Source of the DNA: Narthecium ossifragum
Lineage: Eukaryota; Streptophyta; Magnoliopsida; Dioscoreales; Nartheciaceae
Direction: 5' to 3'
Assembly (NCBI GenBank): GCA_963920575.1
Contig: OY986969.1
Span: 12,912,615-12,976,614 of the forward strand
DNA: 64,000 nt
A model generated the notes under the pieces. It was not told where the DNA came from. It searched no databases and worked only from the letters and a program-made list of their open reading frames with translations. Position numbers and translations under genes: made by a program. The stretch's first letter is position 1, and each line of letters starts with the position of its first letter. Below are positions 424 to 57,387 of the stretch, piece after piece.

Positions 424-815
424 AGATCGATCTCCTATAGCATGGAGATCGATCTTCCTCGAGGCTAGAGCACCCGTCCTGGTCACCCCCACGAGATCGA
501 TCTCCACCCATATGAAGATCGATCTTGTAGGTGACGTGGACGCAAACCGCACAGGCACCAGCCGCCAAGAGATCGATCTCCCTCCCAGGGAGATCGCTCT
601 CGCTCGGGCGGGCTGGGCCACCCCGACCAAGATCGATCTCTTTCCAAGAGATCGCTCTCGCTCGGGCGGGCTGGGCCGTCCTTCGGAAGCCACCGACAGA
701 GACTTCCAGGCACAGGGAGATCGATCTTCATGGCTATGGAGATCGATCTTCCTCGCCCAGAACAGCGACCACTAGGCACAGAGAGATCGATCTTCATTGC
801 CATGGAGATCGATCT
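424..815. repeat. Six pairs of AGATCGATCT palindromes
   Basis: The 10-bp palindrome AGATCGATCT, or a one-base variant AGATCGCTCT, starts at 424/446, 494/516, 570/591, 630/649, 718/740 and 784/806. Distances within a pair are 22, 22, 21, 19, 22 and 22 bp; spacers between pairs are longer. A 29-bp segment (591-619) recurs at 649-677, showing local duplication. The spacers differ in sequence, so the pairs are not simply copies of one unit. Function is unknown. Confidence 0.9.
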
Positions 816-1026
816 CCCTTGCCCAAAACGACAACCTTGGGCTGAGTCACAAGCCCAAGCACAGGACTACCGAACCAGGGTCGACCTAACCTTTCTAAGC
901 AAAACACAAGCACCAAACAAGGTCTGTGTGTGCACAGCCACTGTGAAACGACCGCCAAGGCGCAATTTCCCAAATTGCCCTTGGGGTAAACAGCAAACCA
1001 CAGGGATGGAGGGGCAGGTCCTCAGA

Positions 1027-2512
1027 CCGGGAGTATTTCAGTAAATCCTCCAATCACCGTATGAAATGGTGAAATTCAAAACTCAAACAAAGACGTTCAA
1101 AATTTGGACAAATGTTCGATAGCTGGACAATTATTCAAATTCAAAATAAATGTTTGAATTTTGAATAAACATTTAAAATTCAAACAAGTTCACACGTGAA
1201 CTTCAAATTTAAACAGACATTCAAAATCTAAATTTCATATCTCAACTCCCTGATCTGGATGGTTAGGAAATACTAACCTCCCCATATCTCAACAGATGCC
1301 AAATCTCAAGACCCAAACCCATGGTTAGAAACCAAATCCTAACACCCCAGCCCCCAACAAACATGGCTAGAAACCAAATCTCAACACCCCATGATCCCCG
1401 TGCATATCGCACCAACCTCTCAACAAACTCCAAACATCTATAAAAGGAAGGTGAAGGAGAACAGAAGCAGTGGTTAGAAAGAAAGAAAGCAAAGAAGGAG
1501 AAGAAGAGAAAGCTTGGACGCCCGGGAGGGAGGAGCCTATTGCCGTCGCCAGCCTTGAGCCAGTCCGAGGTCTTCGTCGTTGGCGTCCCTGATCCCAGCC
1601 CAAGGAGCTCATCGGGGAACCCATCGTCGTCGTCATCTTTGATTCAGTCGGTGCAACCCAAAGAACCCATCGCTGTCATCCAGCCGGAGGAACCCAAAGA
1701 ACCCATCGATGTCATTCAGTCGGAGGAACCCAATGAACTCGTCATCTTCCTTGATCTAGTCGGAGGAACCCGAAGAACTCGTCATCTTCCTTGATCCAGT
1801 CGGCGGAACCCGAAGAAGCTCGTCGCCCAGCCAGAGGATCCCATCACCATCGTCCTCCTTGATCTAGTCAAGGAGACCGTCGTCGTCTTCTTCTGTTCCA
1901 GCCGGCGGAACCCAAAGAAACTCGTCGCCCAGCCCAAGGAGGGAGCCCCGTCACCTTCCTCAAGCTTGTCGCCGTCCGTTGATCCAGTGGGAGGACTCGT
2001 CCCCATCGCCATCCTCGACTCACCCGTGAAGCGTGAAGCATACCTCCAGCAAGGTCCACGCCGCGACTTCCCCTGTTTCCACCCATCTCCAAGCTTGGAC
2101 GTCTCCTCAGCATCCAGCGCATCCCCACCGGATTCGTCGCCCACCATCATGCGTAGCTTAAAGCTTGAAGCGGCATCAACACCCAGCGAGGTCCATCACC
2201 AACTGTCCGTCGCTGTTCGCTCGCGGCTCCAAAGTCCGACGGGATCTTCTTCAGCGGCTTCTTCTGTTCCAGTCGGCTTTGTCAAGATTCCGACGCTCGG
2301 ACGGCACCTTCTTCGGCGCTAGGACGACATCCTTCGGACTACAGCAGCCCTGAGGATCCTGCGGCAAAACCCAGAAGACATCTGAAGATCTTCACTCGGA
2401 TAACGTCATCCCCAACTCCGGTAGTCTCAAAGCTCCGGCAACAAAAAAATACAAAAAAACATAAAACAGCAACTTCAGTCACCTCAAAATCCTGGCGATG
2501 AAGGTGGCGGTC
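1027..2512 (+). other. Promoter-like and C-rich leader-like DNA, no gene assigned
   Basis: An AT-rich part (1060-1230) with repeated TTCAAA/TTGAAT motifs is followed by a TATA-like box CTATAAAAGG (1438-1447), then a purine-rich stretch and from about 1500 a C-rich region with several short overlapping open frames and no recognisable domain. The arrangement resembles U3-R-leader of a plus-strand LTR or the 5' end of a gene. It ends where the Athila-like LTR begins. No frame shows a known family. Confidence 0.4.
1630..1830. repeat. Degenerate 36-42 bp tandem repeats
   Basis: Four to five units built on GTCGGAGGAACCC-AAAGAAC, followed by CATCGATGTCATT or TCGTCATCTTCCTTGAT. The first units stay in one plus-strand frame and encode repeated EEPKEP-like residues; later units shift frame. 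A related motif recurs at 1905-1940. Confidence 0.7.
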
Positions 2513-3929
2513 TGATGAATAAATTTTATATCTCGTAAGTATACGAATCGGTGTGATCAGTATAGCAGCAAGACGAGTATCGTACCCACAGAGATTTGTA
2601 GAGATTATTAGAGTAAAACGCTAAAGAATAGAAAAGATAGAATATAAGGAAGGGAAAATAAGAAATATGAAGTATCGAAAATAGAAGATCTAATAACGGA
2701 ATAAGAAAACGATAGAAATATGATTGATGAAGACTAAGGTTCCGATTGCACCATAACATCCTCATTCTATGCATTGAATCAATCAAGATCTCAGTTTAAT
2801 TCCAAGGGTTCGTTTTTCCGGTATGATGATTCGTTCGGCCGCGGTCTTCACCAAGTACCCTCAATTAACCCTAGCTAATGAACCCATAACTAAGTGTTAA
2901 CTAAGAATCCATTAAGCTCTGAAGAACAATCATGAACCAAAAATAGTCTTAGCTTGAACCCGGCTTTGACATAAACTCATTCATTCATAGATCCTGTAAG
3001 ATTAGGGAATGAACCCTCGCCCAATCTCACATAAAACAATCTATAATACTTCTATTGGCTAGATAAAGGTATTTAAGATCTCAGTTATAATAATGAATGA
3101 AATAAGAAATATAAACTGATTAAATAAACATGATCCAATAACATAGAATGATTCAGTTAGGCTACATCGGTACCTTAGAGAAGAAACTAGCCACTCATGT
3201 TCATCATGAGGGCAACAAAACTAATGAAGAAATAAAGAAGAAATAAGATGAGGAAAAGAAAAGAAAACCAAGCCTGGAACCAGTCTCCTCTCCTCCAAAC
3301 ACTGCCAAAAGACCCCCCACAAACCCTAGAAAGAGTCCTATTTATAGCCTTAAGTGTCTCCATCCTCGGATTAGATCTAAACCGTTGATTTTCTTCACTG
3401 AGAAAGTAGGATCGATCCTTCCATGGGTGTAGGATCGATCTTTTGCATCAAAATCTTCAATTTCTGGCTACGCCCGAGTAAGATCGATCCTTCGATGGGT
3501 GTAGGATCGATCCTGCTCAGTAGGATGGATAGTAGGATCGATCCTACTAGGGAGAAGGATCGATCTTTCTTTTCTGAGTATTTACTGTTTTGTCATCCAG
3601 ACTGCGCCATTGGTACTAAAATTGCCGTAACTTCCTCTAGGAAACTCCAAATCACGAACCGTGAAATTCTCCAGAAACTAGACTTCAAGAGCTTTCCAAT
3701 AATATATGGTACATCATCTGGTTCTTCATGAGAAGGTACAGTTTAATCTTTCAAGTTGATCTATGTAATCTTTTCAGCTTCTTTGCACCTTTTTCCTGCA
3801 TTTTCCAAACAACTATGTGAAGCAACATATAGATATAAAAATATTAATAAAGATGTTGATTAAGGATAATAAATCCAGTAATCAAACTAGTTATAAGGCT
3901 ATTCAGAGTGCACTTTCATGCACTCATCA
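2513..3929 (-). repeat. Complete 3' LTR of Athila-like copy 1
   Basis: On the minus strand it runs TGATGAGTGC to ATTTATTCATCA, about 1.42 kb. It is preceded by a run of G (CCCCCC on plus at 3932-3937). Its low-coordinate end (2513-2888) aligns with 7555-7930 and 47567-47942, and its remainder with 16345-17427. Confidence 0.85.
3339..3566 (-). promoter_or_regulatory. LTR U3 promoter: TATA box with upstream palindrome pairs
   Basis: A TATA box, CTATAAATA on the minus strand (3339-3347), is preceded 60-220 bp upstream by GGATCGATCC-type palindromes starting at 3409/3432, 3481/3504 and 3535/3557. Distances within pairs are 23, 23 and 22 bp. A degenerate site (GGATGGAT) lies at 3523. The duplicate copy at 16789-17064 keeps the layout. 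Confidence 0.65.
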
Positions 3930-5126: not shown

Positions 5127-7505
5127 TCAACCAGGTTTGTATGGCTGTAATTCTTCAAAGGGTGCCATGACCTCCTTTGCTCTCTCATAACTGTGCAATT
5201 CATCCTCCACCATCTTCAAATCCGCTTTCAATGTAGTCTTCACTTGCTCCTGTCTGAAATTAGAGAACACCAATGAATCTACAACATCTATTGAGAAGCA
5301 ATCAAAAGAGTTTGAAGGATAGGACATAGACTCAAACACTTTAAATTCAACAGTTTCACCTAAAACTGTCATGCTATGCTTACCATCCTTCACATTAATT
5401 ATAGTTTCGGCTGTAACCATGAATGGACGTCCCAACAAAATAGGTAAATTTCTATCATTCAACGGTTCATCATCCCTATCCAATATCACAAAATCAACAA
5501 GTGTAATTAACTTATCAACTTGTACTAAGATGTCTTCTACAATGCCTAATGGATACTTAATTGAACAATCTACAAGTTATAGAGGCATAGTAGTAGGGTT
5601 TAATTTACCAACACCTAGCTGAAGGAAAATAGAGTAAGGCATCAAATTAACACTAGCTCCTAAGTCAAGCATTGCCTTCCCTATTTTTGTATCACCAACA
5701 ACAATATTAATGTTAAAACTCTCTGGATCCTTATGCTTGGGTGGAAGCTTCCTTTGTAGAATCGCGCTTGCCATCTCTAAAACCATCACCTTTTCATGAG
5801 GTTCATACTTACGTTTAGAAGTACGTAGTTCCTTGAAAAACTTTGAAAAGGCTGGCATTTTCCTAATCACATCAAGCAATGGTAAGTTCACATTAACCTT
5901 AGATAGAATATCATAAATTTCAGAATAAGACTTATCCCTTTGGGCTTTCTTCAGGCGGCCGGGAAAAGGAATTGGCGGCACATATGGTGGAGGAGTGTTG
6001 TGACGAACCTCTGGATTTGAAATTGTTCTCTTTCCATGCTCAGAAGACGATGTGGCCAGCGGTGGCCTCTTCGAGGGCTCTTCCCTCTCGACTTCCTCAT
6101 ATTTATCATCACTACATATATCAGTAACTTCAGCATTAATATTATTATCAATTATCTTACCTGAACGAAGAACAGTAACTGCGTTGACTTGCTCAGGTTG
6201 GCTTGGAAATATGCCTGGAACATGGGCTCGTACACAATCTACAAGCTGTCCCACTTGAACTTCCAACTTCCCAATGGATGCTGCATCATGTTGAGCAATG
6301 GTCGCATCTTGTTTTTCCATCTTTGAGTCTATTTTTTGCATAAAAACTAACATAGTCGCTTCCAAAGACTACTTAACAGGTAGGTTAGACTGATTAGCAG
6401 TAGGCATACTAGCATTAGAAGTATTTTTCCATGAAAAATTCGGATGCTCCCTCCAACTAGGATTGTAAGTAATTGCATAAGGGTCAAATCTAGGTCTCAG
6501 GTTATAAGCATTCATCAAATTAGCTTGTTCTTGTACATATTCAGGAAATTCACTACCAGAAGGACATGAATCAAATCTATGACCAACAATATTGCAAATT
6601 GAACAAACCTCAACCGGTTTTGCTTGTGTGGACATCATCGTGTCCATCTTTTTGTTGTGGGCTGCAATTTGCCTTGCCAAATCGTCGTTCTGGTTCAGCT
6701 CATAGATGCCTCTCACCTTATTCCTTGTGTCCCTCTGCTGTGAGCTGGATCCTAACATCTCATAAATCTCGTATGCCTCTGGGGGTGTCCTTTTAAACAT
6801 CGCTCCACCTGCAGCATTATCTGCCATAGTCTGACAAGAAAGATTTAGTCCATCATAAAAATATTGCATCTGATTTTCTAAAGAGTAATTATGATGTGGG
6901 CATTGCATCAAAAGCATTTAAAATCTATCCCATGCTTCATGGAATGGTTCTCCATCAGATTGCCGAAAATTTGGAATTTGCCTTCTCAGGTTAGTAGTCA
7001 TGGCATGAGAATAAAATTTGTTAACAAACTTGTTATAAATTGCATCCCAAGTAGTTAGTGATTCAGGAGGCAACGACATCAACCATCTCTTTGCTTTATC
7101 TTTCAGAGTATAAGGAAAACATCGCATCCTCAGTTGATCTTCAGTAATGCTACCTAGAGGAAAAGTCTGAATAGTAGCATAATAATCTTTCACAAACGTT
7201 AGTGCATCTTTAGAAGGTAAACCATGAAATTCAGGAAGCATAGAAAAATATAGATTTTTAAGTTCATAATTCCTAGCCTCTGCAAATAACGCGATGCAAG
7301 AAGGTGATGTAGAAATAGTAGGCCTCGCGTACTCCTCCAAAGAACGTACATTGTTATTAAGCTCCATCTCCTCTTGGTCCTCCTCTTGAACTCCTAGATC
7401 TGATGTGGACAGGCTATTTTTGTTAGATCTCTTCTTCCAACCAATTTGATCTACTTTATCGTTCAAGGGCAACAACTTTTCTTTCCGTGATCGGCGACCT
7501 TGCAT
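5127..7505 (-). pseudogene. Athila-type gag-protease, broken by nonsense codons
   Basis: One minus-strand frame starts with MQGRRSRKEK at 7505 and ends with the stop at 5127-5129. Order: N-terminal linker, retrotransposon gag domain (LKDKAKRWL), CCHC knuckle CSICNIVGHRFDSC, Athila signature NPSWREHPNFSW, linker, then aspartic protease with active-site DLGAS and flap-side LGRPFM. In-frame stops lie at 6918-6920 (TAA, where copy 2 has AAA), 6369-6371 (TAG against TCG) and 5577-5579 (TAA against CAA). An 18-bp in-frame deletion near 6285 relative to copy 2 is also visible. Gag would form the particle and protease would mature it; this copy cannot. Confidence 0.9.
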
Positions 7506-7554: not shown

Positions 7555-7930
7555 TGATGAATAAATTTTATATCTCGCAAGTATACGAATCGGTGTGATC
7601 AGCATAGCAGCAAAACCAGTATCGTACCCACAGAGATTTGTATAGATTATTAAAGTAAAACGCTAAAGAACAGAAAAGACAGAAAATAAGGAAGGGAAAA
7701 TAAGAAATATGAAGTATCGAAAATAGAATATCTAATAACGGAATAAGAAAGCGATAGAAATATGATGGATGAAGACTAAGGTTCCGATTTCACTATAACA
7801 TCCTCATTCTATGCATTGAATCAATCAAGATCTCAGCTTAATTTCAAGGGTTCGTTTTTCCGGTATGATGATCCGTTCGGCCGCGGTCTTCACCAAGTAC
7901 CCTCAATTAACCCTAGCTAATGAACCCATA
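7555..7930 (-). repeat. Truncated 5' LTR of Athila-like copy 1
   Basis: Matches the first 376 bp of the 2513-3929 LTR and stops abruptly at CATA. The missing part of such an LTR begins at 16345, also with CATA, on the far side of the SOBIR1 segment. 7555-7930 plus 16349-17427 would make one complete LTR. Confidence 0.85.
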
Positions 7931-11499: not shown

Positions 11500-13327
11500 T
11501 GGCCGCCCTCATCTCTCTCCTCCTCCTCCTCTCCCTCTCCCTCTCCTCCGGCACTGCCGCACCAACAACCACCGATGCCGCCGACCTCAGCCGCCTCCTC
11601 TCCGACCTCGGCCTCCCTCCCCTCCCCACACACCCTTGCCATCTCCCGGGCATCTCATGCCAAGCCTCCGCCCCCATTCGCATCGCCCTCAGCTCTCGCC
11701 ATCTCGACGGTACTCTCTCCCCGGCCATAGCGGCCCTAACCTCTCTCCGTGAGCTCTCCCTCCCTCGCAACCAGCTCTCCGGACCTCTCCCGCCCGAGCT
11801 GGGTTCTTGCTCCGCCCTGGAGATCCTTGACCTCCGCTGTAACCGCCTCTCCGGCGCCGTCCCCCCAGAGCTCTCGTCCCTCTCCTCCCTCCGCGTCCTC
11901 GACCTCTCCGCCAACCGCCTCGCCGGCGATCTTCACTTCTTGACCCAACTCCCCAACCTGGAGACCCTCTCCCTCTCCGACAACCTCTTCTTCGGCAAAG
12001 TCCCCCCCGCGCTTTACTCCTTGCGGAACCTCCTCACCGCCGACCTCTCCCTAAACCCCGGCCTCGATCTCGGCGAAGTCTCCACCGTCCCTCACAATCG
12101 CAGAAGTCTCTTATTGCCCGCTACCCCGGACCGGCTGCAGTCCCCCATCGCCACCACAGCACCAGGACCCGCGTGCGCAACTGGATCGTCGGCTTCATCG
12201 TCGGATCGGTTTCCGGAATCGTCTCCGGCTTTCTAATCACCTTGCTCTTCCGCATGATCCTCAACTGCATCCACCGCCGGTACACCGACCCATCCGGCCC
12301 TTCCATCTACAGCCCTCTAATCATGCGCGCCGAGGACCTCGCGTTCTTAGAGCGAGACGACGGATTGGCTTCTCTTGAGGTCATCGGCCGCGGCGGCTGC
12401 GGCGAGGTCTACAAAGCTCAGCTCCCCCCGCCGGACCCCCGTGACCACCCCGAAGTCCCCGGCAAGCTCATCGCCATCAAGAAGATCCGCAAGCTGAGCG
12501 CCGGCGACCTCAGCGAGGAGGATAGCAAGGTGCTGGACAAGCACAGGCGCCAGATCCGGTCCGAGATCCGCACCGTCGGGCAGATCCGCCACCGCAACCT
12601 CCTCTCCCTCGTCGCCCACGTCTCCCGCCCCGACAGCGACTACCTGGTCTACGAGTACATGAAGAACGGCAGCCTCCACGACGCACTCCGCGCCGTGGCC
12701 GAGGGCCGCCGCGAGCTCGACTGGCCCACCCGCCACCGCATCGCGCTGGGCATTGCCGCGGGGCTCGAGTACCTCCACATCCACCACAGCCCCCGCATCA
12801 TCCACCGCGACCTCAAGCCAGCCAACATCCTCTTGGACGACAACATGGAGGCGAGGATCGCCGACTTCGGCTTCGCCAAGCAGGTCCCGGACAACAACAC
12901 CCACATGACGACCTCCAACGTGGCCGGCACGGTGGGGTACATCGCGCCGGAGTACCACCAGCTGCTGAAGTTCACGGTCAAGTGCGACATCTACAGCTTC
13001 GGGGTGATCCTGGCGGCGCTGGTGATGGGGAGGCAGCCCTCGGACGACTTCTTCCAGGAGACGGAGGAGATGAGCCTGGTGAAGTGGATGCACAACACGA
13101 TGAGGTCGGAAGATCCGAGGATAGCCATCGATAGGGGCTTGCTGGGGAATGCCGCGTACGAGGAGCAGATGCTGCTGGTGCTGAGGATTGCGTGCTTCTG
13201 CACGGTGGATGACCCCAAGGAGAGGCCTAACAGCAAGGATGTGAGGACCATGTTGGCGCAGATAGTACTGCCACAGGACTCTACTGGTCTTAATACTAGC
13301 CACCAGCAACTATATAACATGCTGTAG
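11499..13327 (+). CDS. SOBIR1: SOBIR1-like LRR receptor kinase, apparent 1-nt frameshift
   Basis: Plasma-membrane kinase of the SOBIR1/EVERSHED type, which partners LRR receptor-like proteins and, with BAK1, relays pathogen recognition. Ectodomain frame (11499 on): signal peptide residues 1-21, cysteine pair C47/C54, about five LRRs (66-186). The transmembrane-kinase part is in another frame, read from about 12117: basic/His linker, membrane segment with G-x3-G spacing (GFIVGSVSGIVSG), the family hallmark after it (SPLI-RAEDLAFLE), then kinase: GRGGCGEV loop, Lys in AIKK, HRDLKPAN, DFG, GTVGYIAPEY. All catalytic residues are present and it is an RD kinase. One missing base near TTATTGCCCG (12111-12120) would unite the frames into roughly 608 residues, near the usual 640. 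The frameshift may be real or an assembly error. Intronless, very GC-rich. Confidence 0.88.
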
Positions 13328-14392: not shown

Positions 14393-15747
14393 TGTGAGGA
14401 CTCGTAGCGCCTATCCGATCCGACCGTATTAGGTCGAGGGTCTAGTTTCACGTTGGGTGTGATCGGGCGATCTTATTGTTGTTTTGGACCCATGGGCAAT
14501 TTGGGAAAATTGCACCCTGACGGTCGGTTTGACACGCGCGTAGTGCACACACTACCCTGGATTGATGTATGTGATTGATTAGAACCTTAGGAGCACTTCC
14601 GATCGGAAGATCGGAGCTCGATCGGGAAAGATTGAATCGGACGATCGATATCAATTTCAGATTTCTATAGATACCCCTTAGTTTTCTCTCTCTTCCTTTT
14701 TTCTCTTTTTCTCTCCATCTCTCTCTCCTCCTTGACTGTCGGTTGGAGCTTTGGCTATGGGATTTCGAGGCGGATTCGAAGCAATTGGAGCCGGGGGATT
14801 GGTAAATCGTCAGCTCATCTATACACGTAGGTGTTTCTATCCAATTCCAGTGAATTGGTAAACCTAGGATTGATTTGTTGTTGATTTGGTGTGGTTTTGT
14901 TTGTTGGAATGTTTCCAAACTTTATATTCAAGTGTAATGGCATGTTTAGAAGATTGGTACTGAACCAGTTTGGTATTTCTTCGGACGAATCTTGTATTTT
15001 CGCTGGTTTTGTCGGTTTTTGGCAAATTTGGCCTAGATCTGAAATTTACCCATATGAAGTTTGCTTTCATGGTACAATTAGATTCCCCTCCCTCAATTAT
15101 ACCTCTCTGCAAAGTTTCAATTCATTCCGACAAGTTTTGATAGATCAAATCCAAGAAATTGGATTTTCGGTACTATTCATATAAATAGTAACCGCCGTAT
15201 GAAGGATCGATCTTTTGTAGGAAAGGATCGATCTTTTAGTTTGAATAGAATTTCCTCCATATGAAGGATCGATCTTCTGGATATAAAAGATCGATCTCTT
15301 TTGTGCTGGTAAGGAGAATTTATGTCGAATTTTCTCGGATTGAGGTTTTTAATTAAACAGTCATGTTCATGCTCGATTTCTATGTTCTTCGTGCATGATC
15401 TTGTGAAACTTTCAAGATGAAAGTTGTAGAGCATCGAGTTTTCTTTTGATTTCTGCTGTTTTTATAATTGTTGGATTTTTTTACAATTTATGGTGAAATG
15501 TTTTGTAAACTCTGATGAAATAGAGTTGAAGGAAAGATCAATCTTCTTGGGTAGAAGATGGATATCTTTTCAACCCATATTTCTTCTATGTCTTTCCCAA
15601 TGATGAATAACGATTAATATGGTATTTTAATTTGGATTTTGGTTGATTTATTTTCGGATCATACCATGATTCGTGTTTTGGATTGATTTAACCGAAATTT
15701 ATTGATTCCAAGCAATTTTACGTCAATATATATATATATATATATAT
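14393..15747 (+). mobile_element. TGTGAGG-family LTR fragment B
   Basis: Starts TGTGAGGACTCG and follows the family layout: GGGCAATTTGGG block, CACACACTACCCTGGATTGATG, then U3 palindromes (GATCGGAAGATCGGAGCTCGATC), a TATA-like TCTATAGATA (about 14663) and a pyrimidine-rich leader. Further on are palindrome pairs starting at 15204/15225, 15266/15288 and a decayed pair 15535/15556 (21, 22 and 21 bp apart). Ends at an AT microsatellite followed by the next LTR. Confidence 0.7.
15726..15747. repeat. (AT)n microsatellite
   Basis: Eleven AT units immediately before the TGTGAGGGCCCG head of LTR fragment C, suggesting that C landed in, or was joined at, an AT tract. Confidence 0.9.
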
Positions 15748-16344: not shown

Positions 16345-17427
16345 CATAACTAAGTATTAACTAAGAATCCATTAAGCTTTGAAGAACAATCATGAACCAA
16401 GAATAGTCTTAGCTTGAACCCGGCTTTGACATAAACTCATTCATTCATAGATCCTGTAAGATTAAGGAATGAACCCTCGCCCAATCTCACATAAAACAAT
16501 CTATAATACTTCTATTGGCCAGATAAAGGTATTTTAAGATCTCAGTTATAATAATGAATGAAGTAAGAAATATAAACTGATTAAATAAACATGATCCAAT
16601 AACATAGAATGATTCAGTTAGGCTACATCGGTACCTTAGAGAAGAAACTAGCCACTCATGTTCATCATGAGGGCAACAAAATTAATGAAGAAATAAGATG
16701 AGGAAAAGAAAAGAAAACCAAGCCTAGAACCAGTCTCCTCTCCTCCAAACATTGCCAAAAAACCCCCCTCAAACCCTAGAAAGAGTTCTATTTATAGCCT
16801 TAAGTGTCTCCATCCTCGGATGAGATCTAAACCGTTGATTTTCTTCACTGGAAACGTAGGATCGATCCTTCCATGTGTGTAGGATCGATAATTTGCATCA
16901 AAATCTTCAATTTCTGACTACGCCCGAGTCAGATCGATCCTTCCATGGGTGTAGGATCGATCCTGCTCAGTAGGATCGATCCTACTGTGCTCCTCTGGAA
17001 AGTATGCGCTCTGTCAGGTCTGCTGCACAGAAGGATCGATCCTACTAGGGAAAAGGATCGATCTTTCTTTTCTGAGTATTTACTGTTTTGTCATCCAGAC
17101 TGCGCCATTGGTACTAAAATTACCGTAACATCCTCTAAGAAACTCCAAATCACGAACCGTAAAATTCTCCAGAAATTAGACTTCAAAAGCTTTCCAATAA
17201 TATATGGCACATCATCTGGTTCTTCATGAGAAGGTACAGTTTAATCTTTCAAATTGATCTATGTAATCTTTTCAGCTTCTTTGCTCCTTTTTCCTGCATT
17301 TTCCAAACAACTATGTGAAGCAACATATAGATATAAAAATAGTAATAAAGATGTTGATTAAGGATAATAAATTCAATAATCAAACTAGTTATAAGGCTAT
17401 TCAGAGTGCACTTTCATGCACTCATCA
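16345..17427 (-). repeat. Athila-like LTR remainder beginning at CATA
   Basis: Aligns with 2885-3929, keeping the TATA box (16789-16797) and palindrome pairs (16859/16882, 16931/16954, 17033/17055). It carries an extra stretch near 16985-17030 absent from copy 1. It lacks exactly the 372 bp that are retained in the truncated LTRs at 7555 and 47567. Confidence 0.85.
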
Positions 17428-21149: not shown

Positions 21150-21446
21150 CGGTCGATCTGGCGATCGACCGTGAGACCAAGCCGAAGAAAACCAAGGGGC
21201 GACGGTCGATCCACTCATCGACCCTGGGAAGCCCAAAACCAAACAGCGCCTGACGGTCGATGCGACGGTCGACCGTCAGGTGGGATGAAAAAGGGAGAGA
21301 GCCCGCGATCGATCGATCCATCGACCGTGGGAGTCCAAAACCCCGACAGAGCCTGACGGACGATGCGACGGTTGATCCGACGGTCGACCGTCAGGCCCAG
21401 GTTGAGTAAATCAACACTTGACGGTCGATGCACCGATCGACCGTCG
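21150..21446. repeat. 24-bp quasi-palindromes in the Tekay 3' LTR
   Basis: About six units with arms ACGGTCGATC and GATCGACCGT around a 4-base middle (for example middle TGGC near 21150), each 24 bp long, separated by unrelated spacers rich in AAAACC. Matching units lie in the 5' LTR at 44570-44890. Confidence 0.85.
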
Positions 21447-35230: not shown

Positions 35231-35358
35231 CTCCAGCTGGTTAGGGTTTTGAGTGGGAAGAGGAGATCGGCTTGAGAGAGAGAGGAGGAGGAGCTGTGGA
35301 CGTTTTGAGGACTTAGGGCACGGTCGAACCAGAGAGGTGAATGAAGGGTGATCGGGAG

Positions 35359-35697: not shown

Positions 35698-35904
35698 CCA
35701 TAAAGTGACTTTTGAAATTCAATTTAAAATCATTTTTAAATAAAAACATCACAAATCTTTGCAAGCACGTGTAACTAAATATTATGAGACAAAAATCACT
35801 CATTAATCATGATATTAACTTAATTTACCAAAATTTAGCATTCAAGTTGAATATGGTATGAAAAGCAGTTAAAGAGGTGACCATACCTTTTCCTTTTAGC
35901 TCCT

Positions 35905-37057: not shown

Positions 37058-38389
37058 TCAACATAGACTTCTTCTTTTAGTAAACCATTCAAGAAGGCAA
37101 CTCTTCACATCCATTTGATATAATTTGAAATCTTTGTAAGATGCAAAAGCTAGAAGTAGTCTTATTGCCTCAAGTCTAGCTACCGGTGCAAAAGTCTCAT
37201 CAAAATCAATTCCTTCTTGTTGATTGAAACCTTTTGCAACTAGTCTAGCTTTATTCCTTGTAATTGTTCTCGATTCATCCATTTTGTTTCTAAACACCCA
37301 TTTAGTACCTATAACGGGATGATCATGAGGTCTAGGTACCAAATTCCAAACTTCATTTCTTTCAAATTGATTCAACTCTTCTTGCATTGCTAGGATCCAA
37401 TGATCATCCTCTAGTGCTTCCTCTATCGTTTTAGGCTCAATTTGAGATAGGAAGGCTAGATTTGAACAAGTATTTAATGAAAATCTAGTTTGGATTCCTC
37501 TTGATGGTTCACCAATTATTAATTCCTTTGGGTGCGAAGATGCATACTTCCAATCCTTTGGCAACTCATGATGTTGATCACTAGGTATAATCTCAAGGGA
37601 TTCCTCAAATCTAACATTCAATTCTTCAACATCATTTTTGGTTTCATCCAATAAGTCTTTTGATTTGTCATTTGGGTTTTCCTCATCTTTACCATTATCA
37701 ATTCTACTAGGAATTAAAATCATTTCATCAAATGTCACATGCATTGATTCTTCAACCACCAAAGTCCTTTTATTGAAGATTCTATAACTTTTACTTCTTC
37801 CCGAATATCCAAGAAAGACTCCTTCATCGGATCTAGCATCAAATTTTCCAAGACTATCCTTGCCATTGTTCAAGATAAAACATTTGCAACCAAAATCTCT
37901 AAAGTACCCAATATTTGGAATTCTTCCTTTCCAAAGCTCATAAGGGGTTTTCTTCAAAATGGGTCTCAAGGTTACTCTATTTATCACATGGCAAGAAGTA
38001 TTGATTGCTTCGGCCCAAAAATACTTAGGAAGATTATTTTCACATAATAAAGTTCTAGCCATGTCTTGTAGGGTTTTATTTTTCCTTTCAACAACACCAT
38101 TTTGTTGAGGGGTTCTAAGTGAAGAGAAGTTATGGGAAATCCCGTTGTCATTACAAAACTTTTCTAGATGGGAGTTCTTGAATTCTCTTCCATTATCACT
38201 TCTAATGCATGTAATGAGAATACCTTTATCATTTTGGACTCTTCTACAAAAGTTGGTGAATTCCTCAAAGACTTCATCTTTGTGTGCAAGGAAAATCATC
38301 CAAGTGTATCTAGTGTAGTCATCTACTAAAACAAATCCATATGAGCTACCAGCTAAGCTAGTTGGTTTAGTAGGCCCAAAAAGGTCCAT
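37058..38389 (-). pseudogene. Copia integrase and start of reverse transcriptase
   Basis: MDLFGP, DYTRYTW (first catalytic Asp), IRSDNGREF (second Asp) and [11 protein letters not shown] (Glu), then the C-terminal GKCFILNN-like and VFLGYS motifs and, from about residue 330, the RT N-terminus ([33 protein letters not shown]). The frame ends early because of the inserted base near 37098. A 4-base loss near 38455 separates it from the upstream protease frame. Confidence 0.9.
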
Positions 38390-38448
38390 ATTAATGAGTT
38401 CTAGTGCTCTTGTGGTAGAAACTACATCTTTAGACTTGAAAGAGGATT

Positions 38449-39147
38449 TTACTTGTTTTCCTCTTTGACATCACAAATCTTGTCTTTCTCGAATTTGATC
38501 TTGGGAAGTCCAAGAACAAGGTCTTTTCGAGAGAGTTTGGAAATTAAATCCATGTGAGCATGTCCAAGTCTTCTATGCCATAACCATGAATTATCATTTA
38601 AAGCACTAAGACATAGACCATCATGGCAAACAAGATCATTTAGATAAAATGTATATACATTACCATCACGATGACCTACTAGGAAGATTTTATCACTAAG
38701 AGCATTCTTAACATAGCATTTTGAATCTTCAAAAATAACTTTGTTACCTCTATCACATAATTGACTAATGTTAAGCAAGTTATGTTTCAAACCTTCAACT
38801 AAGAGAACATTTTCAATAATAATGGAAGAGGTTTTACCAATATTGCCAATGCCAATAATTTTTTCTTTTCCATTATCTCCAAAAGTCACCATTCCTCCAT
38901 CTTTAGATTGAAGGGTTGAGAACATGCTCCTTTCACCTGTCATATGTCTTGAACATCCACTATCAAGGTACCATCTTTTAGACTTTGAGTTGGTCTTGAT
39001 CTTGGATCTCATGCAATCCTACAAATAGGAGATCAAACCTTGATTTTTGATACCCAAATCTTTTTGGGTCCATTTGCATTAGTACTATGCATAAGAGAAG
39101 AAGATGAATATCTAGGTGACCAGATTTTCTTAGCATTAGCATTCCGA
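38449..39147 (-). pseudogene. Copia protease and GAG-pre-integrase domain, gag missing
   Basis: Frame from 39012: WYLDSGCSRHMTG (protease active site DSG), LLVEGLKHNLLNISQL, LWHRRLGHAHMDLISKL (zinc-binding GAG-pre-integrase region). Just upstream, 39033-39147 reads as the usual gag-protease spacer (NANGPKKIWVSK). Gag and the 5' LTR are absent; sequence switches at about 39148 to plus-strand LTR repeats. Confidence 0.85.
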
Positions 39148-40121
39148 TGCATGGATGCATCCGAGGAGTTCACGGATGATGCGCGGATGCATCCGTGGAG
39201 CTCACGGATGATGCGCGGATGCATCCATCGAGCTCACGGATGATGCGCGAATGCATCCGTAGAGTTGACGGATGATGCGCGGATGCATCCGTAGGATGCG
39301 ACGGTCGATCCGTGGATCGACCGTGGAGCATTTTTGAACATCCGTGAGGTGCGACGGTCGATCCGTGGATCGACCGTGAGGCTTTTTTTTAAGAAAAGTA
39401 AGGTGTGACGGTCGATCGGTGCATCGACCGTGGGAAGCTTTTTTCTTGACAGAGCCTGACGGACGATGTCACAGACGATGCGACGGTCGACCGTGAGGCG
39501 TGACGGAAGATGCATGGATCGACCGTGAGCCCAAAAACTAGCCGTTAAAGAGCCGTTGCAGAAACAGAAAATAGCCGTTGGAAGCTATTTTTTGAGGCCC
39601 TAAAGCTCAAGTATATATGAGAAGATGCAGCAAACTTGGGGTAAGACTAAGGGAGATATTAGTTTATATTGTAACAAGTTTTAGTCTTCTTTTGAGAGCT
39701 TTAACCTTTGTAAAACTACTTCAAGTTGTGAAGTAGACTTTGTGAGAAATATCCAAGAGAGAGCTTGGACTGATTTGTAAGGTTCTCAAGCACCCGTAAG
39801 CTCGAGGGGGAGCTCCAGCAGTTGTTGGAGGATTTGTAAGGTTGCCAAGCACCCGGAAGCTTGGTGGGAAATTTTGTAAGGGAAGATTACAAGTAGTGGA
39901 ACCTCAAGGAGAGCCTTGAGAGAGTGGACGTAGGCAAGGTTTGCCGAACCACTATAAAATCTGGTGCAAGTCTCCTAACTCTTTCTCTCATCCTTCATTG
40001 CATGCTTTACTTATAGTTTTCATATCTAAACAAGCATACTAGTCTTCTAGCATTTTAACTTGGTTTTCATCTATTATATTTCCGCAAAAGAGTCCAATTC
40101 ACCCCCCCTCTTGGACCATCA
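39148..40121 (+). repeat. Plus-strand copia LTR tail
   Basis: GGATGCATCCG repeats (39148-39296), then 24-bp hairpin-like units at 39301-39324, 39354-39377 and 39408-39431 (arms ACGGTCGATCC and GGATCGACCGT around GT in the first two), AGCCGTT repeats, a TATA-like TATATATGAG (39612-39621), leader, and the SIRE-type end TTTCCGCA...CACCCCCCCTCTTGGACCATCA. Confidence 0.8.
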
Positions 40122-40126
40122 TGTTC

Positions 40127-43412: not shown

Positions 43413-45710
43413 TGTCACACCTCAGCCTAGAAAACCCATCCAGGACGAGGCATGAGGGTTCCACAACCATTGTACTATTCAATATTTGATACAAAGTCTT
43501 CCAAGGATAGTTATAATACTTAAATCCCAAAAGTCCTCAAAATGTTTACAACATATATAAACTTATCCAAAAGTACAACAGATAATCCTCCAGCAACCTC
43601 AAGCGCCTCTGGATGTACTCGCACCGCCAAAGGCCGATCCTGCCGGCTCCACGGAAGAAGAACTGCCGCCTGCACCTGCAAACGCAGCCCGGGTAGGAGT
43701 GAGTGATAAGCTCAGTAGGGTTCTACTCTACGGCACACAGAAGGGAGGAAAACAACAACAGTGTTGTCTCCCAGCTCAAGTCTCACGGATGCCACGGGTC
43801 CCACAACCCTGTCGATGTCCCAAGGGCTCCTGCCATGAAACCTCTCTCCTGAACAAGTTACCAGGAGGCCACGAAACAGTAACATGCAGGATCACCCTTA
43901 CCCAAGCAGGAATACCATGCCTTGGGGAACCACGTCGGGAACGCATCGACACCCATCCTTAGCACTTGGCCTTGGAAGACAACACGACCTCTAAACCTTA
44001 AACACTGATCAGAGTCAACTATCGCAAATCCTCAACACATGAGATTCAAATTGATACAATCACACCCTAATCCTGACTACCCAGCCACGGCCCTAAGGCT
44101 AGATCCGAGCTACCCGAGAGCCCCGAATCGGTGACCCAAACTATCGCCCGCCTAACCTCGTATGCCTCTAATGCAAACAGTGCATGAATCTATACAAACA
44201 TCTACCCTAGATGTCTCTATATGCCACAACATCCGTTATAGATTCAACAGATATACAATAGCCCTCGGCACCCGCCGGCAAGAGGCTAAGGTTTCACAAT
44301 TCCTCATTAGCTAGCACTCATAGCTAGTTAATGGTTAGGCAATCAACTAAGCATTTAACTACACTCAAACATGTATTAAAATGCAAACGAAACCATAGAT
44401 TTGCCCAAAAAGGAGAATTACTCGAATCGATCCTCAAACTCGATGGAAATCATTTGAAAACCCCATAAGATCCACATACATGCTTCCCAACATGTTTAGA
44501 TGTTAATCACAAATCAAATCCATCCACGAAAGGCCAGAAAACCAAGTTCAAGGGCCCACGGACGATGTCACGGTCGATCCGGCGATCGACCGTGAGGCCA
44601 CGGATGAGACCAAGGCGAAGAAAACCAAGGGGTGACGGTCGATCCACTCATCGACCATGGGTAGCCCAAAACCAAACAGTGCCTGACGGTCGATGCCACG
44701 GTCGATCCGACGGTCGACCGTCAGGTAGGATGAAAAAGGGAGAGAGCCCGCGATTGATCGATCCATCGACCGTGGGAGTCCAAAACCCCGACAGAGCCTG
44801 ACGGACGATGAGACGGTCGATCCGACAGTCGACCGTCAGGCCCAGGAAGAGCAAATCAACACTTGACGGTTGATGCACCGATCTACCGTTGAGCCTTAGG
44901 CACAGTTCATCAGAACAGTGCTGAAAATCCATTTCCTTGGATTTCAAGGATCAAATCAAGTTGGAAAACAATGAGATTTTGTAAGCAAGTGTAATTCTCG
45001 ATGGGGAATCCAATGGTATAAAGAAATCACATTTTTGACGGTTAAATCTCATATCTAGGTCCAAATGGACGAAAACCGAGAAACGGCAATAATACGGAAA
45101 CCAACCGTTAGAATACCGAATTCGCAACGTAGGAATTCAGGAAAAGAACTACACCACATGTGCAAAGAGCTAAAAAGCATTCTAACATGTATTCCTACAG
45201 CGAAAGAGCAATAAACCTATCCTAGGAGAACCCGATCCTAAGATCGAGGTAGAAACACCTACTTGAGCAAGTAGGGCAGCTCCTCCATGCGTCCCACCGG
45301 TCAAGCCACCAAGATCCGCGCTTCGAAAGCCGCGTCTCCAAGCCCTAGCTCAGCCGAAGTAGAGAGAAAGAGAGAAAACGATAGGAGAAGAGAAGGAAAG
45401 AGAGAGAAAGGGACAGGGCTTATATAGAATTCCGGATCTATCTCAGCCGTCCGATTCGATCTTTCCCGATCGAGCTCCGATCCTCCGATCAGACGCACCC
45501 TAGAGATTCTAATCAAACACATACATCAATCCAAGGCCGTGGGTGTAACGCGGATGTGAAACCGACCACCAGAGGGCATATTTACTAAAATGCCTCCGGG
45601 GTCCAAACTGCCATTCGATCGCACGATCGTACCCGACGCGGAACCGAATCAACAGGAAACCGGCTCTCGACCCACGCGGTCAAGCCAGGTCGGAGGGACG
45701 GGCCCTCACA
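43413..45710 (-). repeat. 5' LTR of the Tekay element
   Basis: 2,298 bp; minus-strand head TGTGAGGGCCC and tail GAGGTGTGACA. TATA box near 45424, 24-bp quasi-palindrome array at 44570-44890. Lacks the MITE and about 125 bp around its site compared with the 3' LTR. Confidence 0.85.
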
Positions 45711-47517
45711 AAACTCCCTGGATCCTTAAGCTTGGGTGGAAGCTTCCTTTGTAGAATCGCGCTTGCCATCTCTGAAACCATCTCCTTTTCATGAGGTTTA
45801 TACTTATGTTTAGAAGTACGTAGTTCCTTGAAAAACTTTGGCAAGGCTGGCATTTTCCTAATCACATCAAGCAATGGTAAGTTCACATTAACCTTAGATA
45901 GAATACATAAATTTCAGAATAAGACTTATCCATTTGGGCTTTCTTCAGGCGGCCTGGAAAAGGAATTGGCGGCACATATGGTGGAGGAGTGTTGTGACGA
46001 ACCTCCGAATTTGAAATTGTTCTCTTTCCATGCTCAGAAGATGATGTGGCCAGCGGTGGCCTCTTCGAGGGCTCTTCCCTCTCGACTTCCTCAAATTTAT
46101 CATCACTACGCATATCAGTAACTTCAGCATTAATATTATTATCAATTATCTTACCTGAACGAAGAACAGTAACTGTGTTGACTTGCTCAGGTTGGCTTGG
46201 AAATCTGCCAGGAACATGGGCTCGTACACAATCTACAAGTTGTCCCACTTGAACTTCCAACTTCTCAATGGATGCTGCAACATTCTTCAGTACTGCATCA
46301 TGTTGAGCAATGGCCGCATCTTGTTTTTCCATCTTTGAGTCTATTTTCTGCATAAAAACTAACATAGTCGCTTCCAAAGACGACTTAACAGGTAGGTTAG
46401 ACTGATTAGCAGTAGGCATACTAGCATTAGAAGTATTTTTCCATGAAAAATTCGGATGCTCCCTCCAACCAGGATTGTAAGTATTTGCATAAGGGTCAAA
46501 TCTATGTCTCGGGTTATAAACATTCATCAAATTAGCTTGTTCTTGCACATATTCAGGAAATTCACTACCAGAAGGACATGAATCAAACCTATGACCAACA
46601 ATATTGCAAATTGAACAAACCTCAACCGGTTTTGCTTGTGTGGACAACATCGCGTCCATCTTCTTGTTGAGGGCTGCGATTTGCCTTGCAAAATCGTCGT
46701 TCTGGTTCAGCTCATAGATGCCTCTCACCTTATTCCTTGTGTCCCTCTGTTGTGAGTTGGATCCTAACATCTCATAAATCTCATATGCCTCTGGGGGTGT
46801 CCTTTTGAACATCGCTCCACCTACAGCATTATCTGCCATAGTCTGACAAGAAAGATTTAGTCCATCATAAAAATATTGCATCTGATTTTCCAAAGAGTAA
46901 TTATGATGTGGGCATTGCATCAAAAGCATTTTAAATCTATCCCATGCTTCATGGAATGGTTCTCCATCAGATTGATGAAAATTTGGAATTTGCCTTCTCA
47001 AGTTAGTAGTCATGGCATGAGAATAAAATTTGCTAACAAACTTGTTATAAATTGCATCCCAAGTAGTTAGTGATTCAGGAGGCAACGGCATCAACCATCT
47101 GTTTGCTTTATCTTTCAGAGTATAAGGAAAACATCGCATCCTCAGTTGATCTTTAGTAATGCTACCTAGAGGAAAAGTCTGAATAGTAGCATAATAATCT
47201 TTCACAAACGTTAGTGCATCTTCAGAAGGTAAACCATGAAATTCAGAAAGCATAGAAAAATATAGATTTTTAAGTTCGTAATTCCTAGCCTCTGCAGATA
47301 ACGCGATGCAAGAAGGTGATGTAGAAATAGTAGGCCTCGCGTACTCCTCCAAAGAACGTGCATTGTTATTAAGCTCCATCTCCTCTTGTTCCTCCTCTTG
47401 AACTCCTAGATCTGATGTGGACATGCTATCTTTGTTAGATCTCTTCTTCCAACCAATTTGATCTACTTTATCGTTCAAGGGCAACAACTTTTCTTTCCGT
47501 GATCGGTGACCTTGCAT
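45711..47517 (-). pseudogene. Athila-type gag, copy 2 (5' half of gag-protease)
   Basis: Starts MQGRRSR (spelled MQGHRSR here) at 47517 and reads open for 544 codons: LKDKANRWL, knuckle CSICNIVGHRFDSC, NPGWREHPNFSW, then the protease linker. One base is missing near 45905 relative to copy 1, shifting the frame; the right frame continues at 45886 (NLPLLDVIRKMP) to the Tekay insertion at 45710 and resumes at 19207. Better preserved than copy 1, lacking its three nonsense codons. Confidence 0.9.
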
Positions 47518-47542: not shown

Positions 47543-47560
47543 TCCCCGGCAACGGCACCG
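47543..47560 (-). other. Primer binding site of copy 2, tRNA-Asp type
   Basis: Minus-strand form of TGGTGCCGTTGCCGGGGA with its first base changed, equivalent to 7531-7548. Confidence 0.75.
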
Positions 47561-52418: not shown

Positions 52419-53553
52419 TGTGAGGACCTGCCCCTCTACCCCTGTGGCCCGTTGTAGACCGCAAGGGCAATTTGGTAAATTGCGCCTTGTTGGTTTGTTT
52501 CACACCCGCGTGTGCACACACTGGCCTTGATTGTGTTAAATGTTTGTTTAGAACGGCTAGGTGGACCCGGGATCGGAAGATCCCAGCTCGGGCGCGCGGA
52601 AGCTTGCCTTTGGGCAGCTGACGGCCCTTGAGCGATCGATCGCTCCTTGGGGCGATCGGTCGGACTCGTGAGCGAGTCGGTGGGTTTTGATCCGGGGCGA
52701 GAACGATCGATCGCTCCTTGGAGCGACCGATCGGACTCGCGTCGGTGGCTTTTCTGCTTCGCGAGGACGGCCACCGCTGGCCGTCGCTCTCCTCTGTCAG
52801 AGGAGGGGAGACTTCCCCTCCCCTTCCCTCACTTTTCCCCCTTCCCCCGGCTTTCCCCTTCCCCTTTTCCCCCTATTTCTTCCCCTTCCCTTCCTCCTTC
52901 CCCTTTCTTCTTCCTTCCTTCTTTCTCTCCCGAAGCCCTGTTTTTCCCCTGTTTCCGACAGCCACCTTCATCACCTCCGTTCTCCCTCCTCTGGCCATCT
53001 TTTCCGGCGTTCTAAGGCTCGTTGGATTCGTGACAACGAGAGGAAGATCCCTGAAGAGATTTGGAGGCTTGTTGGTGATCAAATCGCGGGGAATCAGCCG
53101 AGGAAAGCGCAGCTAGGTAGGGTTATACCTACTGTGTTCATTTCGGGTTTTCTTGAGATCTAGCCGTTGGATCTTATTGATCCTTGTTTTGTTGGATTTC
53201 TTATACCTGTTAGAATAACTAATTTAAGTTTCATGTTAATCAGTTGAGATTTGAGTAGGTTTTATGCATGATTAGTTCTGGTTTTCTGCTGTTATGGAGA
53301 AACAGCCGGCTTGCGGCGAGTTTTCCGGCCGGCGAGTAGATGATCATGGCTTTTCATAAACATAAGAGTTGTTGATCTATTCATTAGCTTTCCATGCCAT
53401 CTTGTTTCGTATTTTTCCGATTTTTCTACGATTTCTTATGATTTGTTTGCTGGAGGGCTGCGTTGCAGCAATTAAAGGGTAAGTTGGGTTGATCAGCGGT
53501 TTTGATTTGTATTTTCCCGTTAATCCAACCGTTGGATCATTATGAAATTTGGA
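52419..53553 (+). mobile_element. TGTGAGG-family LTR fragment F
   Basis: Head TGTGAGGACCTGCCCC matches fragment A. Contains two palindrome pairs (52633/52653 and 52704/52724, both 20 bp apart, CGATCGATCG with CGATCGGTCG or CGACCGATCG), a strongly pyrimidine-rich leader (52795-52980) and AT-rich tail. It ends at about 53553 against a 3'-end remnant of a family P element. Confidence 0.75.
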
Positions 53554-55050: not shown

Positions 55051-55055
55051 ATTTT

Positions 55056-55249: not shown

Positions 55250-55330
55250 GATTACCGACCGATCGGGCTACCAGGCGAGCGATCGGAAGGCCTAGCGATC
55301 GATCGGCCATCTTCCCGATTGATCGGACGC
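55250..55330. repeat. Palindromes in the P2 leader
   Basis: CGATCGG-type sites at about 55259, 55280, 55296 and 55316 (spacings near 21, 16 and 20 bp) between primer site and gag. P1 has a related pair at 25044/25064. Confidence 0.75.
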
Positions 55331-55447
55331 GCGTCACTCAGGTACGTTTTCTTCACCTAAACTTGTGCTTTTTGCTGTGGCATTCCGTGGTTTTCTCCTC
55401 TTCTTTGAATAGTCTGTTTTCTTTTTCTCTTTTTGGTGTGATCTTGT

Positions 55448-57387
55448 ATGCAAGGCAGACGATCCCTACATAATCCTTTTGAACCTTTGGATCTAGAAAT
55501 AGAGACCACACTTCGAGCTGCTAGAACCTTAGCACAAAAATCTCTATGTAACTATCAGGAAGCCATAAGCAACTTGCAATCGTTAATGGCTGAACACGAG
55601 GAACATGTCATTGACCCTAATGATAATATGGGTAGGGGTGGAAATGATCACAATAATAGAGAAGTCCCAATTAGAAATCACTTCTTACCTGGACCTTATA
55701 CCTATGCTTCTTGTATCAACCCACCTACCATCAATGCTACCCATTATGAGATTAAGCCTAACTGGATTACAACCTTACCTTCTTTCTATGGCGTGAGAAT
55801 GAGGATCCCTATGGACACATTGCTAGCTTTCTTGAAATCCTTTCTATGTTCAAACTTCAGCATTTTAATGATGATGCCTTTAGACTCAAACTCTTCCCTT
55901 TTTCTTTGAAAGATAAGGCTAAACATTGGCTCCAAACCTTAGCTCCAAATTCGATTTCAACATGGGACCAACTTCAGGATGCTTTCCTTAAGAAATATTT
56001 CCCGATCATTAAAACTCAAAATTATCGAACCATGATTATCTCTTTTAAGCAAAATGAAGATGAGATGTTTCATGAAGCTTGGGAAAGGTTTAAGGATCTT
56101 CTTAGAGAGTGTCCCCATCATGAGGTACCTGAGTGGCAGTTAGCCCTTTCATTTTGTAATGGTATTAATGATCGTTATAGGACAATGGTCGAAGCTTGCT
56201 GCGGGGGTGTTGTTCTTAGTAAGCCATGGACTGCCCTTTGGGAAATGTATGACAATCTTGCTGAAAATTCACAACACAATGCCTCAGTCTCTAGGAGTCG
56301 GTCTACCACTGTTCGTAATTCTCGGGGAATTCATGAAATTTCTAAAGTCCAAAGTCTCTCCGCACAAGTAGCCCTCCTAACTAAAGACTTAAACCAGTTG
56401 AAAACAAGCCAATCTCTTGCTCAACAATTGCCTAATACTTCTCTTGAAATCTGTGCCCTTTGCCTTAATTCTGATCATCATATCACTGATTGTCATCTGG
56501 CCCCCAATTTCCCTGATTTTGTTCAGGAACAAGTTAATGCAACTTATGATTTTTCCAAACCTCAGAACAACCCTTATTCGAATACCTATAATCCAGGTTG
56601 GAGAAATCATCCTAATTTTAGTTGGAAGCCACAACCGTCAAGTAACTTTCAAGGGCAAAACAATCCAGCTAATACTTCTACTCTCAAGTACCCACCTAAA
56701 TCTTTTGCAAATCCAAACCCTGGGTACTCTTCACATTATCCACAGAATACCTCTCAACCTCCTCCTCCTGAATCATCAACTGAGCCCACTTTAAATTCAA
56801 TCATGAGTACACTTTTAGAGATGAGAGGTGATTTCAATAGGGACATGTCATCCATGAAGGTCGAAATTTCAACTGTCAAAAGTGATGTCTCCTTGTTGAC
56901 AAACAATTTATCTTCAACGATTCAATCCATATCAAATTTAGAAAAACAAGTTGGGCAGCTATCTAACAACATGGCTAGAAGAGAGGAAGGGCACCTACCG
57001 AGTCAACCTTTACCCAATCCAAGAGGCCTACACCACGTAGAAAGCCAAAATTTTGAAAGTACCAAGGCCGTAGTGACCCTTAGAAGTGGAAAAACCGTTG
57101 ACAATCATGTAGGGGAATGAACATGTACCGATCGATCGGACACAGTTCCGATCGATCGGCCGTCAGACGACAGATCGGTATTCCAACCGATCGATCGGAC
57201 GGACGGTGGTGACACAAACAACCCACCTGATTCCAACCTCTCTGATTCTAGGGAATCTAACCCTTTCAAGTATACACCTAGGGTACCCTTTCCTGCGGCC
57301 CTTAAGGATCCCTATCCAACTATCAAAGCCCGAAGAGCTGTAGAGGACGCCCTTGAAATCTTCAAACAGGTCAACATCAACATACCA
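55448..57387 (+). pseudogene. Athila-type gag of element P2, two lesions
   Basis: Starts MQGRRSLHNPFEPLDLEI (55448). One base is missing near 55796 (TTTCTATGGCGTGAGAATGAG) relative to P1, moving the frame to the one open at 55846-57120. Gag domain LKDKAKHWL, QNEDEMFHEAWERFKDLL; knuckle CALCLNSDHHITDC; NPGWRNHPNFSW; then a linker. TGA at 57118-57120 interrupts an otherwise continuous gag-protease frame. Linker palindromes follow at 57129, 57149, about 57171 and 57188. Confidence 0.9.

Follow-up and report, generated by a model that had tools for sequence, protein, structure and literature searches.

We analyzed a 64-kb stretch of the Narthecium ossifragum genome (contig OY986969.1, positions 12,912,615–12,976,614, within a 379.4-Mb plant assembly), hereafter called the window, in which palindromes with a TCGA core recur as pairs about two helical turns apart. 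The palindromes are carried by long terminal repeat (LTR) retrotransposons, in their LTRs, in their leaders, and in spacers between open reading frames (ORFs). A preliminary description of the same DNA had listed such pairs in several families that it held to be unrelated.

Retrotransposons carrying the palindromes

Sequence comparison placed the carriers in three groups. A, B, C, and F are Ty3 elements whose LTRs are of the TGTGAGG type; M, P1, and P2 have a primer site of the Athila type; and S is a Sirevirus-like copia element. Three groups are counted, and not about seven unrelated families, because LTR homology joins A, B, C, and F, and because P1–P2 homology and a common primer site join P1, P2, and M. 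The LTRs of A, B, C, and F have their 5′ ends in common and contain homologous segments. The LTR start TGTGAGG was found at 14393, 52419, 45710, and 22265; A has TCTGAGG, and its LTR start was placed at about 1026 by alignment with F. The minus strand of C contains domain pieces of the Ty3 type (RVT_1, RT_RNaseH, Integrase_H2C2, and SH3_Tf2-1), and the insertions of P1 and S interrupt these pieces, around which stand the two LTRs of C, 94% alike. The placement of A, B, and F with C is by LTR homology only.

In regard to the second group, P1 and P2 are homologous along most of their length, and their LTRs are 95% and 99% alike, respectively. The Athila-type primer site, directly after the LTR, was exact at 24840 and 55056 and had one mismatch at 7531 and two at 47543; its carriers are P1, P2, and M (one mismatch). 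Retrotrans_gag was detected in M, M3, and P2, M2 and P2 each matched a protease weakly, and no reverse-transcriptase domain was found in the scanned ORFs of M, P1, and P2. A Ty1/copia polyprotein was found neither in M, P1, and P2 nor in C, which has Ty3-type domains. The ends of M (2513–2888 and 7555–7930) have a common part of only 376 bp (95%), so that these LTRs look mosaic.

The minus strand of S (35908–39018) encodes RVT_2, rve, SH3_retrovirus, gag_pre-integrs, and Pol_BBD, which indicates a Ty1/copia polyprotein. This polyprotein has 7,959 relatives, and the named ones among the best 120 are from plants. The S insertion (32611–40126) is bounded by a 5-bp target duplication, GAACA (40126–40122 and 32615–32611), and despite this duplication its ends (TGATGGTCC... 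and TGTTGATCC...GCTAACA) do not match as LTRs. A second palindrome of S, GATGCATC, lies in tandem repeats of 32 bp at 32748–32852 and 39146–39292, adjoining the TCGA arrays.

Enrichment and pairing of the box

The box was defined in its strict, degenerate form as GRTCGAYC, and spacings were measured from start to start. The window contained 81 GRTCGAYC sites, compared with 4.3 expected from the trinucleotide content and with means of 3.5 and 4.3 in whole-window and 500-bp block shuffles, respectively. Perfect 10-bp palindromes numbered 135 (mean of 63 over 200 dinucleotide shuffles), and 43 of them had a TCGA core (mean of 4.3). Strict pairs at 19–23 bp numbered 17, whereas each of 200 shuffles of the whole window and each of 200 local (500-bp) shuffles had none. 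When the sites were placed randomly within the same clusters, the 29 observed gaps of 19–23 bp stood against a mean of 13.5 (0 of 3000 placements as high), and strict sites showed no excess in the 11–13 bp class (6 gaps against 4.05; 1102 of 5000 as high). The 8-bp palindromes of the window include 117 kinds that contain G or C, and just two of these, GATCGATC (13) and GGTCGACC (1), formed same-sequence pairs at 19–23 bp.

The pairs described earlier are present, with corrected spacings that are steady within each family (Table 1). The earlier list of arrays lacked those of M2, both C LTRs, the P1 gag-pro region, the P2 5′ leader, the S 3′ LTR, and the 39-kb region. Perfect palindromes exist among the pair members, as had been described, but many members are imperfect: A had 10 perfect 10-mers among 12 members, M had 3 among 6, B had 1 among 4, S had 4 among 10, and F had 2 among 4, and imperfect members were also found at 23837, 31460, and 25044 in P1. 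A 12-bp step predominates in the C and S-LTR arrays, unlike the 19–23 bp spacing of A, M, M2, B, P1, the S inter-ORF array, F, and P2.

Genome-wide spacing and helical period

The preliminary description had staked its claim beforehand on a genome-wide peak at 19–23 bp, and such a peak was found. Pairs of GATCGATC numbered 76,202 at 19–23 bp (13 for the reversed pattern), compared with 615 at 14–18 bp (reversed control, 18) and 1,957 at 24–28 bp (reversed control, 41); these genome-wide counts include multi-copy elements and are not numbers of independent origins. The word CGATCGATCG occurred 20,383 times, against 1,315 for the reversed word. Among the first 100 genome pairs listed, the spacings were 19 bp (2), 20 bp (13), 21 bp (15), 22 bp (56), and 23 bp (14), with 86 distinct spacers.

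Twenty random 10-kb stretches contained 93 boxes against 18 reversed words, with sites in 9 of the 20. Every one of the 27 GATCGATC pairs less than 30 bp apart in these stretches fell at 20–23 bp, and GATCGATC was the commonest 8-bp palindrome with G or C (66, compared with 18 for the next). All 14 arrays in the random sample had sequence related to the window families within 1,200 bp.

The period was analyzed with gaps of 25–90 bp, each gap being counted once per array. The window gaps favored a period of 10.25 bp (mean cosine of 0.40); the value at 10.5 bp was 0.336 (0 of 3000 randomized arrays as high), and the best over all periods tried was 0.395 (20 of 3000 as high). The random sample gave 0.43 at 10.25 bp and 0.305 at 10.5 bp (3 of 2000 as high). 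A repeat-unit effect as the source of the phasing was rejected; counting each gap once per array lowers such an effect, yet the signal stayed. A period of about 10.25 bp is expected for DNA-bound proteins and not for RNA hairpins. The earlier proposal that the two sites share a helix face is partly supported by the preference of longer gaps for multiples of about 10.25 bp in both the window and the random sample, although the sample is not fully independent.

Position of the boxes within the elements

The boxes are located mainly outside coding sequence: in the LTRs of A, B, C, F, P1, and S, in the leaders and gag-pro junctions of P1 and P2, and in the S spacer between pol and the third ORF. 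No strict site was present in S pol, the third ORF of S, P2 gag, P2 57301–61363, or P1 27381–30883. C pol, the integrase end of C, and P1 gag-pro each contained a single strict site, and three strict sites were unassigned.

Measured from the start of the LTR, the array begins at 211 bp in A and 214 bp in F, and at 811 bp in B and 822–823 bp in C. Because these positions agree between A and F and between B and C, while the outer bases of the box differ and the core is the same, the box changed in place. P1 and P2 retain boxes in the leader and at the gag-pro junction amid diverged surrounding sequence. In 15 of the 18 pairs at 12 bp, the outward halves have the sequence GGTCGA...TCGACC; these 18 are not independent cases because C and S share descent there. 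The observed/expected CpG ratio ranged from 0.84 to 3.02 across ten arrays, compared with 0.78 for the window.

Table 1. Palindrome arrays and snoR71 matches in the window (spacings in bp, start to start).
Feature	Position	Strand	Description
Array A	424–815	−	AGATCGATCT; six pairs, 22, 22, 21, 19, 22, 22; inside TGTGAGG-type LTR
Array M	3409–3566	−	GGATCGATCC/T; pairs 23, 23, 22; element with Athila-type primer site; TATAAA 63 bp beyond
Array B	15204–15297	+	GGATCGATCT; pairs 21, 22; TGTGAGG LTR starting at 14393
Array M2	16859–17063	−	Second M-family copy; pairs 23, 23, 19, 22
Array C1	21134–21450	−	ACGGTCGAT...ATCGACCGT dyads, 12; in Ty3 element LTR 20047–22266
Array C2	44553–44888	−	ACGGTCGAT...ATCGACCGT dyads, 12; in other C LTR 43470–45711
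P1 5′ LTR pair	23837–23865	+	CGATCGATTG / CGATCGATCG, 19
P1 3′ LTR pair	31460–31488	+	Copy of P1 5′ LTR pair, 19
P1 5′ leader pair	25044–25073	+	20; imperfect left member
P1 gag-pro region	26867–26915	+	Three sites, 19 and 20 apart
S 3′ LTR array	32855–33370	−	LTR 33477–32616 (minus); mainly 12-bp dyads; 116-bp tandem unit
S inter-ORF array	35425–35691	−	Between pol and third ORF (34004–35401, minus); five pairs, 21, 20, 21, 21, 21; 62-bp tandem unit
39-kb array	39290–39530	−	5′ part of S insertion; 12-bp dyads
Array F	52633–52733	+	CGATCGATCG; two pairs, 20, 20; TGTGAGG LTR starting at 52419
P2 5′ leader	55276–55325	+	Three sites, 20; position matches P1 leader pair
P2 gag-pro junction	57129–57197	+	Three CGATCGATCG, 20 and 39 apart
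snoR71 (RF00097)	6887–6992	+	Rfam match
snoR71 (RF00097)	46899–47004	+	Rfam match
snoR71 (RF00097)	25774–25880	−	Rfam match
snoR71 (RF00097)	56020–56126	−	Rfam match

At 57118–57159, P2 gag ends in a UGA stop and the protease ORF follows in the same frame. A predicted 13-bp stem-loop, built from the palindrome pair, begins 8 nt past this UGA. The predicted layout resembles stop-codon readthrough signals. The P1 region aligned to the UGA is an open frame.

All four Rfam snoR71 matches in the window are antisense to gag regions, those of M, M3, P1, and P2, and this family may derive from retrotransposon sequence. The ORF at 11843–13324 (+) encodes a protein kinase domain (PF00069) and is likely a host gene amid nested retroelements. 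A tRNA scan of the window, viral-contig scans for three proteins, and a plasmid search gave nothing useful.

Symmetry of the spacers

Past the base with which the 10-bp palindrome is complete, the spacer ends were complementary to each other. At positions 2–5, 188 of 344 were paired (86 distinct spacers), compared with a permuted mean of 104.6 and with 136.5 (maximum of 163; 0 of 2000 as high) on permutation within end-base classes. In the 24–28 bp class (43 of the 50 places listed), 112 of 215 were paired at positions 2–6, compared with 87.1 in class permutations (0 of 2000). The modal pair with its partly complementary spacer ends is a hyphenated dyad of about 32 bp.

Such a structure could also be formed in RNA (or in a single strand), where two boxes and the short spacer would give a stem of 10–14 bp with a small loop, and selection would act on the hairpin as a small-RNA source, packaging signal, or protein target. 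This explanation draws on the pairing of spacer ends that differ in sequence. It further draws on 38 pairs with flanks, in which hairpin pairing exceeded class-permuted values on the inner side (87 against 80.0; 88 of 2000 as high) and the outer side (85 against 73.6; 8 of 2000 as high), whereas palindrome and tandem extension showed no excess (274–537 of 2000). Palindrome-rich Sirevirus LTR regions in maize draw small RNAs, according to the available text of PMC10760457. All five arrays folded as RNA were much stabler than shuffles (z of −4.5 to −12.2), but these z-scores do not discriminate because any palindrome array folds well. When permuted within families in the window, hairpin pairing showed no specific excess (inner, 45 against 43.3, 1191 of 4000 as high; outer, 36 against 33.9, 951 of 4000 as high), and the 12-bp pairs lacked inner complementarity past the box (6 of 36; permuted, 10.0). 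Because of this within-family null and the 10.25-bp period of the longer gaps, which hairpins do not predict, we did not adopt the RNA hairpin as the sole cause and consider it less likely than a DNA-bound factor, though a live rival.

Exchange, duplication, and artefact

The shared core could instead have been copied, the arrays passing from one element to another through recombination, gene conversion, or template switching, or as a spreading palindromic parasite. With the boxes masked, the C-LTR and S arrays shared a spacer block of 21–22 bp (scores of 20, 18, and 21 against shuffled maxima of 10, 12, and 10; 0 of 60 each); its orientation in the S 3′ LTR is opposite to that in C and in the 39-kb array. 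Four other masked comparisons were null, shuffles being as good in 12 (C1–A), 32 (C1–M), 11 (A–F), and 33 (B–M) of 60; shuffling covered 7 of the 36 array pairs. The earlier statement that spacers are unrelated therefore stands for A, B, M, and F in these comparisons but not for C and S. Since C and S share this block, some exchange took place; it accounts for part of the pattern, not for all of it. The outer box bases differ between families, and a copied module alone would not retain helical spacing with differing spacers, so that module exchange as the general cause is an unlikely, though live, rival. The C–S block is also the sole support for the parasite suggested in the preliminary description, which is a possible but unlikely source of the pairs. 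Common descent of all arrays from one repeat was rejected, as masked spacers were related only between C and S among the seven comparisons.

Tandem repetition coincides with array A (22-bp unit), the S spacer (62 bp), the S 3′ LTR (116 bp), and the 39-kb array (54 bp), and ordinary duplication within LTRs accounts for steadiness within families. Combined with chance resemblance between families it is a very improbable explanation; duplication alone was rejected because it cannot yield the same core and spacing in three groups, and the distinct spacers of the listed genome pairs also speak against it. An assembly artefact is negligible in likelihood: GATCGATC is what GATC-cutter proximity-ligation libraries have at their ligation junction, and PMC5288721 gives it as the junction sequence of Chicago libraries, but separate copies (M and M2; the P1 5′ and 3′ LTRs) have their boxes at matching positions, an agreement on which a Hi-C junction origin was rejected, and such ligation makes neither the GGTCGACC form nor 22-bp pairs with structured spacers.

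Proposed role of the box

We propose that the palindromes are one cis-acting box with the core GRTCGAYC, arrayed in pairs across the LTRs, leaders, and inter-ORF spacers of the three retrotransposon groups as sites for a host dimeric DNA-binding factor, and we give this reading a probability of about 45%. From the observed motif, enrichment, spacing, spacer symmetry, and positions, we infer a factor that would bind each box. The pairs would be bound cooperatively on one face of the DNA, and the bound pairs might act as an enhancer-like (or silencer-like) platform with a regulatory role. Each group would have retained or acquired such sites as the outer box bases changed. A stronger form of the proposal is more tentative, namely that a single host factor imposed one cis-code, two-turn hyphenated dyads of GRTCGAYC, on copia and Ty3 elements tens of thousands of times, the outer bases changing in place and the core, spacing, and spacer symmetry persisting. 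Nothing observed supports the recombinase-like factor that had been suggested as an alternative.

Several observations weigh against a paired site for a host factor. The LTRs of P2 itself contain no strict site. TATA-like words were found within 500 bp downstream in 5 of the 10 arrays scanned, and a nearby TATAAA (63 bp) is confined to M and M2, members of one family. Complementary spacer ends are not predicted by independent binding of palindromes, and the modal spacing of 22 bp slightly exceeds two helical turns. The box counts are inflated by tandem duplication within arrays, and the random sample is only a partly independent replication because its arrays adjoin relatives of the window families. 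Promoter position was dropped as a general proof, the TATA scan being mixed, and a sigma-70 promoter scan is uninformative for plant DNA.

If one host factor does read the paired box in both copia and Ty3 elements, a regulatory input would be common to unrelated retrotransposons, and one protein could activate or silence them together. The boxes known since 2010 from Sireviruses are also extended to other lineages. The geometry makes a shared factor directly testable, with tens of thousands of natural pairs available.

Comparison with known systems

The closest known system is the repeated-motif (RM) boxes of Sireviruses. As described in the available text of Bousios et al. 2010 (PMC2829016), these boxes are palindromic, CpG-rich, and present in many copies with a CGG–CCG core; their clusters lie within the LTR and immediately 5′ of the env-like gene, and they were reported as Sirevirus-specific among the Ty1/copia elements studied, and were proposed to be regulatory. 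The Vitis Sirevirus RM consensus is CGGTCGACCG, and Tnd-1 has the center ATCGAT. The motif of S is identical to the Vitis consensus. S contains at least eight copies of the CGG–CCG type, as CGGTCGACCG and near forms, with 9 strict sites in 32691–34003 and 8 in the spacer between pol and the third ORF. The latter cluster stands directly 5′ of the third ORF, which matches Transposase_32 only and is presumably the envelope gene. The LTR array spans 107 to about 620 bp of the 862-bp LTR; the RM norm in that source is the upper half, from 200–400 bp after the junction, so that the S array starts earlier and extends past the LTR middle. RM clusters are also described as CpG-island-like and as directly preceding a TATA box; the observed/expected CpG ratio of the S LTR cluster is 1.61, compared with 0.78 for the window, and TATATA follows 171 bp on. 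On the features compared, the sequence of S places it with the Sirevirus RM boxes.

Unlike the RM boxes as given in that source, the core described here also occurs in Ty3 elements, its locations include leaders and gag-pro junctions, and it forms pairs at about 21 bp; the available account gives no pair spacing for comparison. In the openly licensed PMC papers searched, CGGTCGACCG appeared alongside "retrotransposon" only in PMC2829016, and no mention turned up of this core in Ty3 elements, of two-turn pair spacing, of a spacing period of about 10.25 bp, or of complementary spacer ends making hyphenated dyads.

U3 activator boxes such as Tnt1 box I are palindromic or repeated and are targets of transcription factors. 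Symmetric repeated boxes are common to Tnt1 and the elements described here, whereas Tnt1 is a single family with a different sequence; its box I is named as a U3 activator box in the available text of PMC2829016. A 2016 study, as cited in the available text of PMC10760457 and PMC5311732, described clustered, hairpin-capable palindromes in LTR regulatory regions with the motif CACCGGACNNNGTCCGGTG; the arrangement is like that described here, and the motif is different. In maize, one palindrome occurs in structured regions of both Copia and Helitron elements (PMC10760457, whose available text gives no spacing). One motif is thus found in unrelated element classes in both cases, the classes being Copia and Helitron in maize and copia and Ty3 in the present plant.

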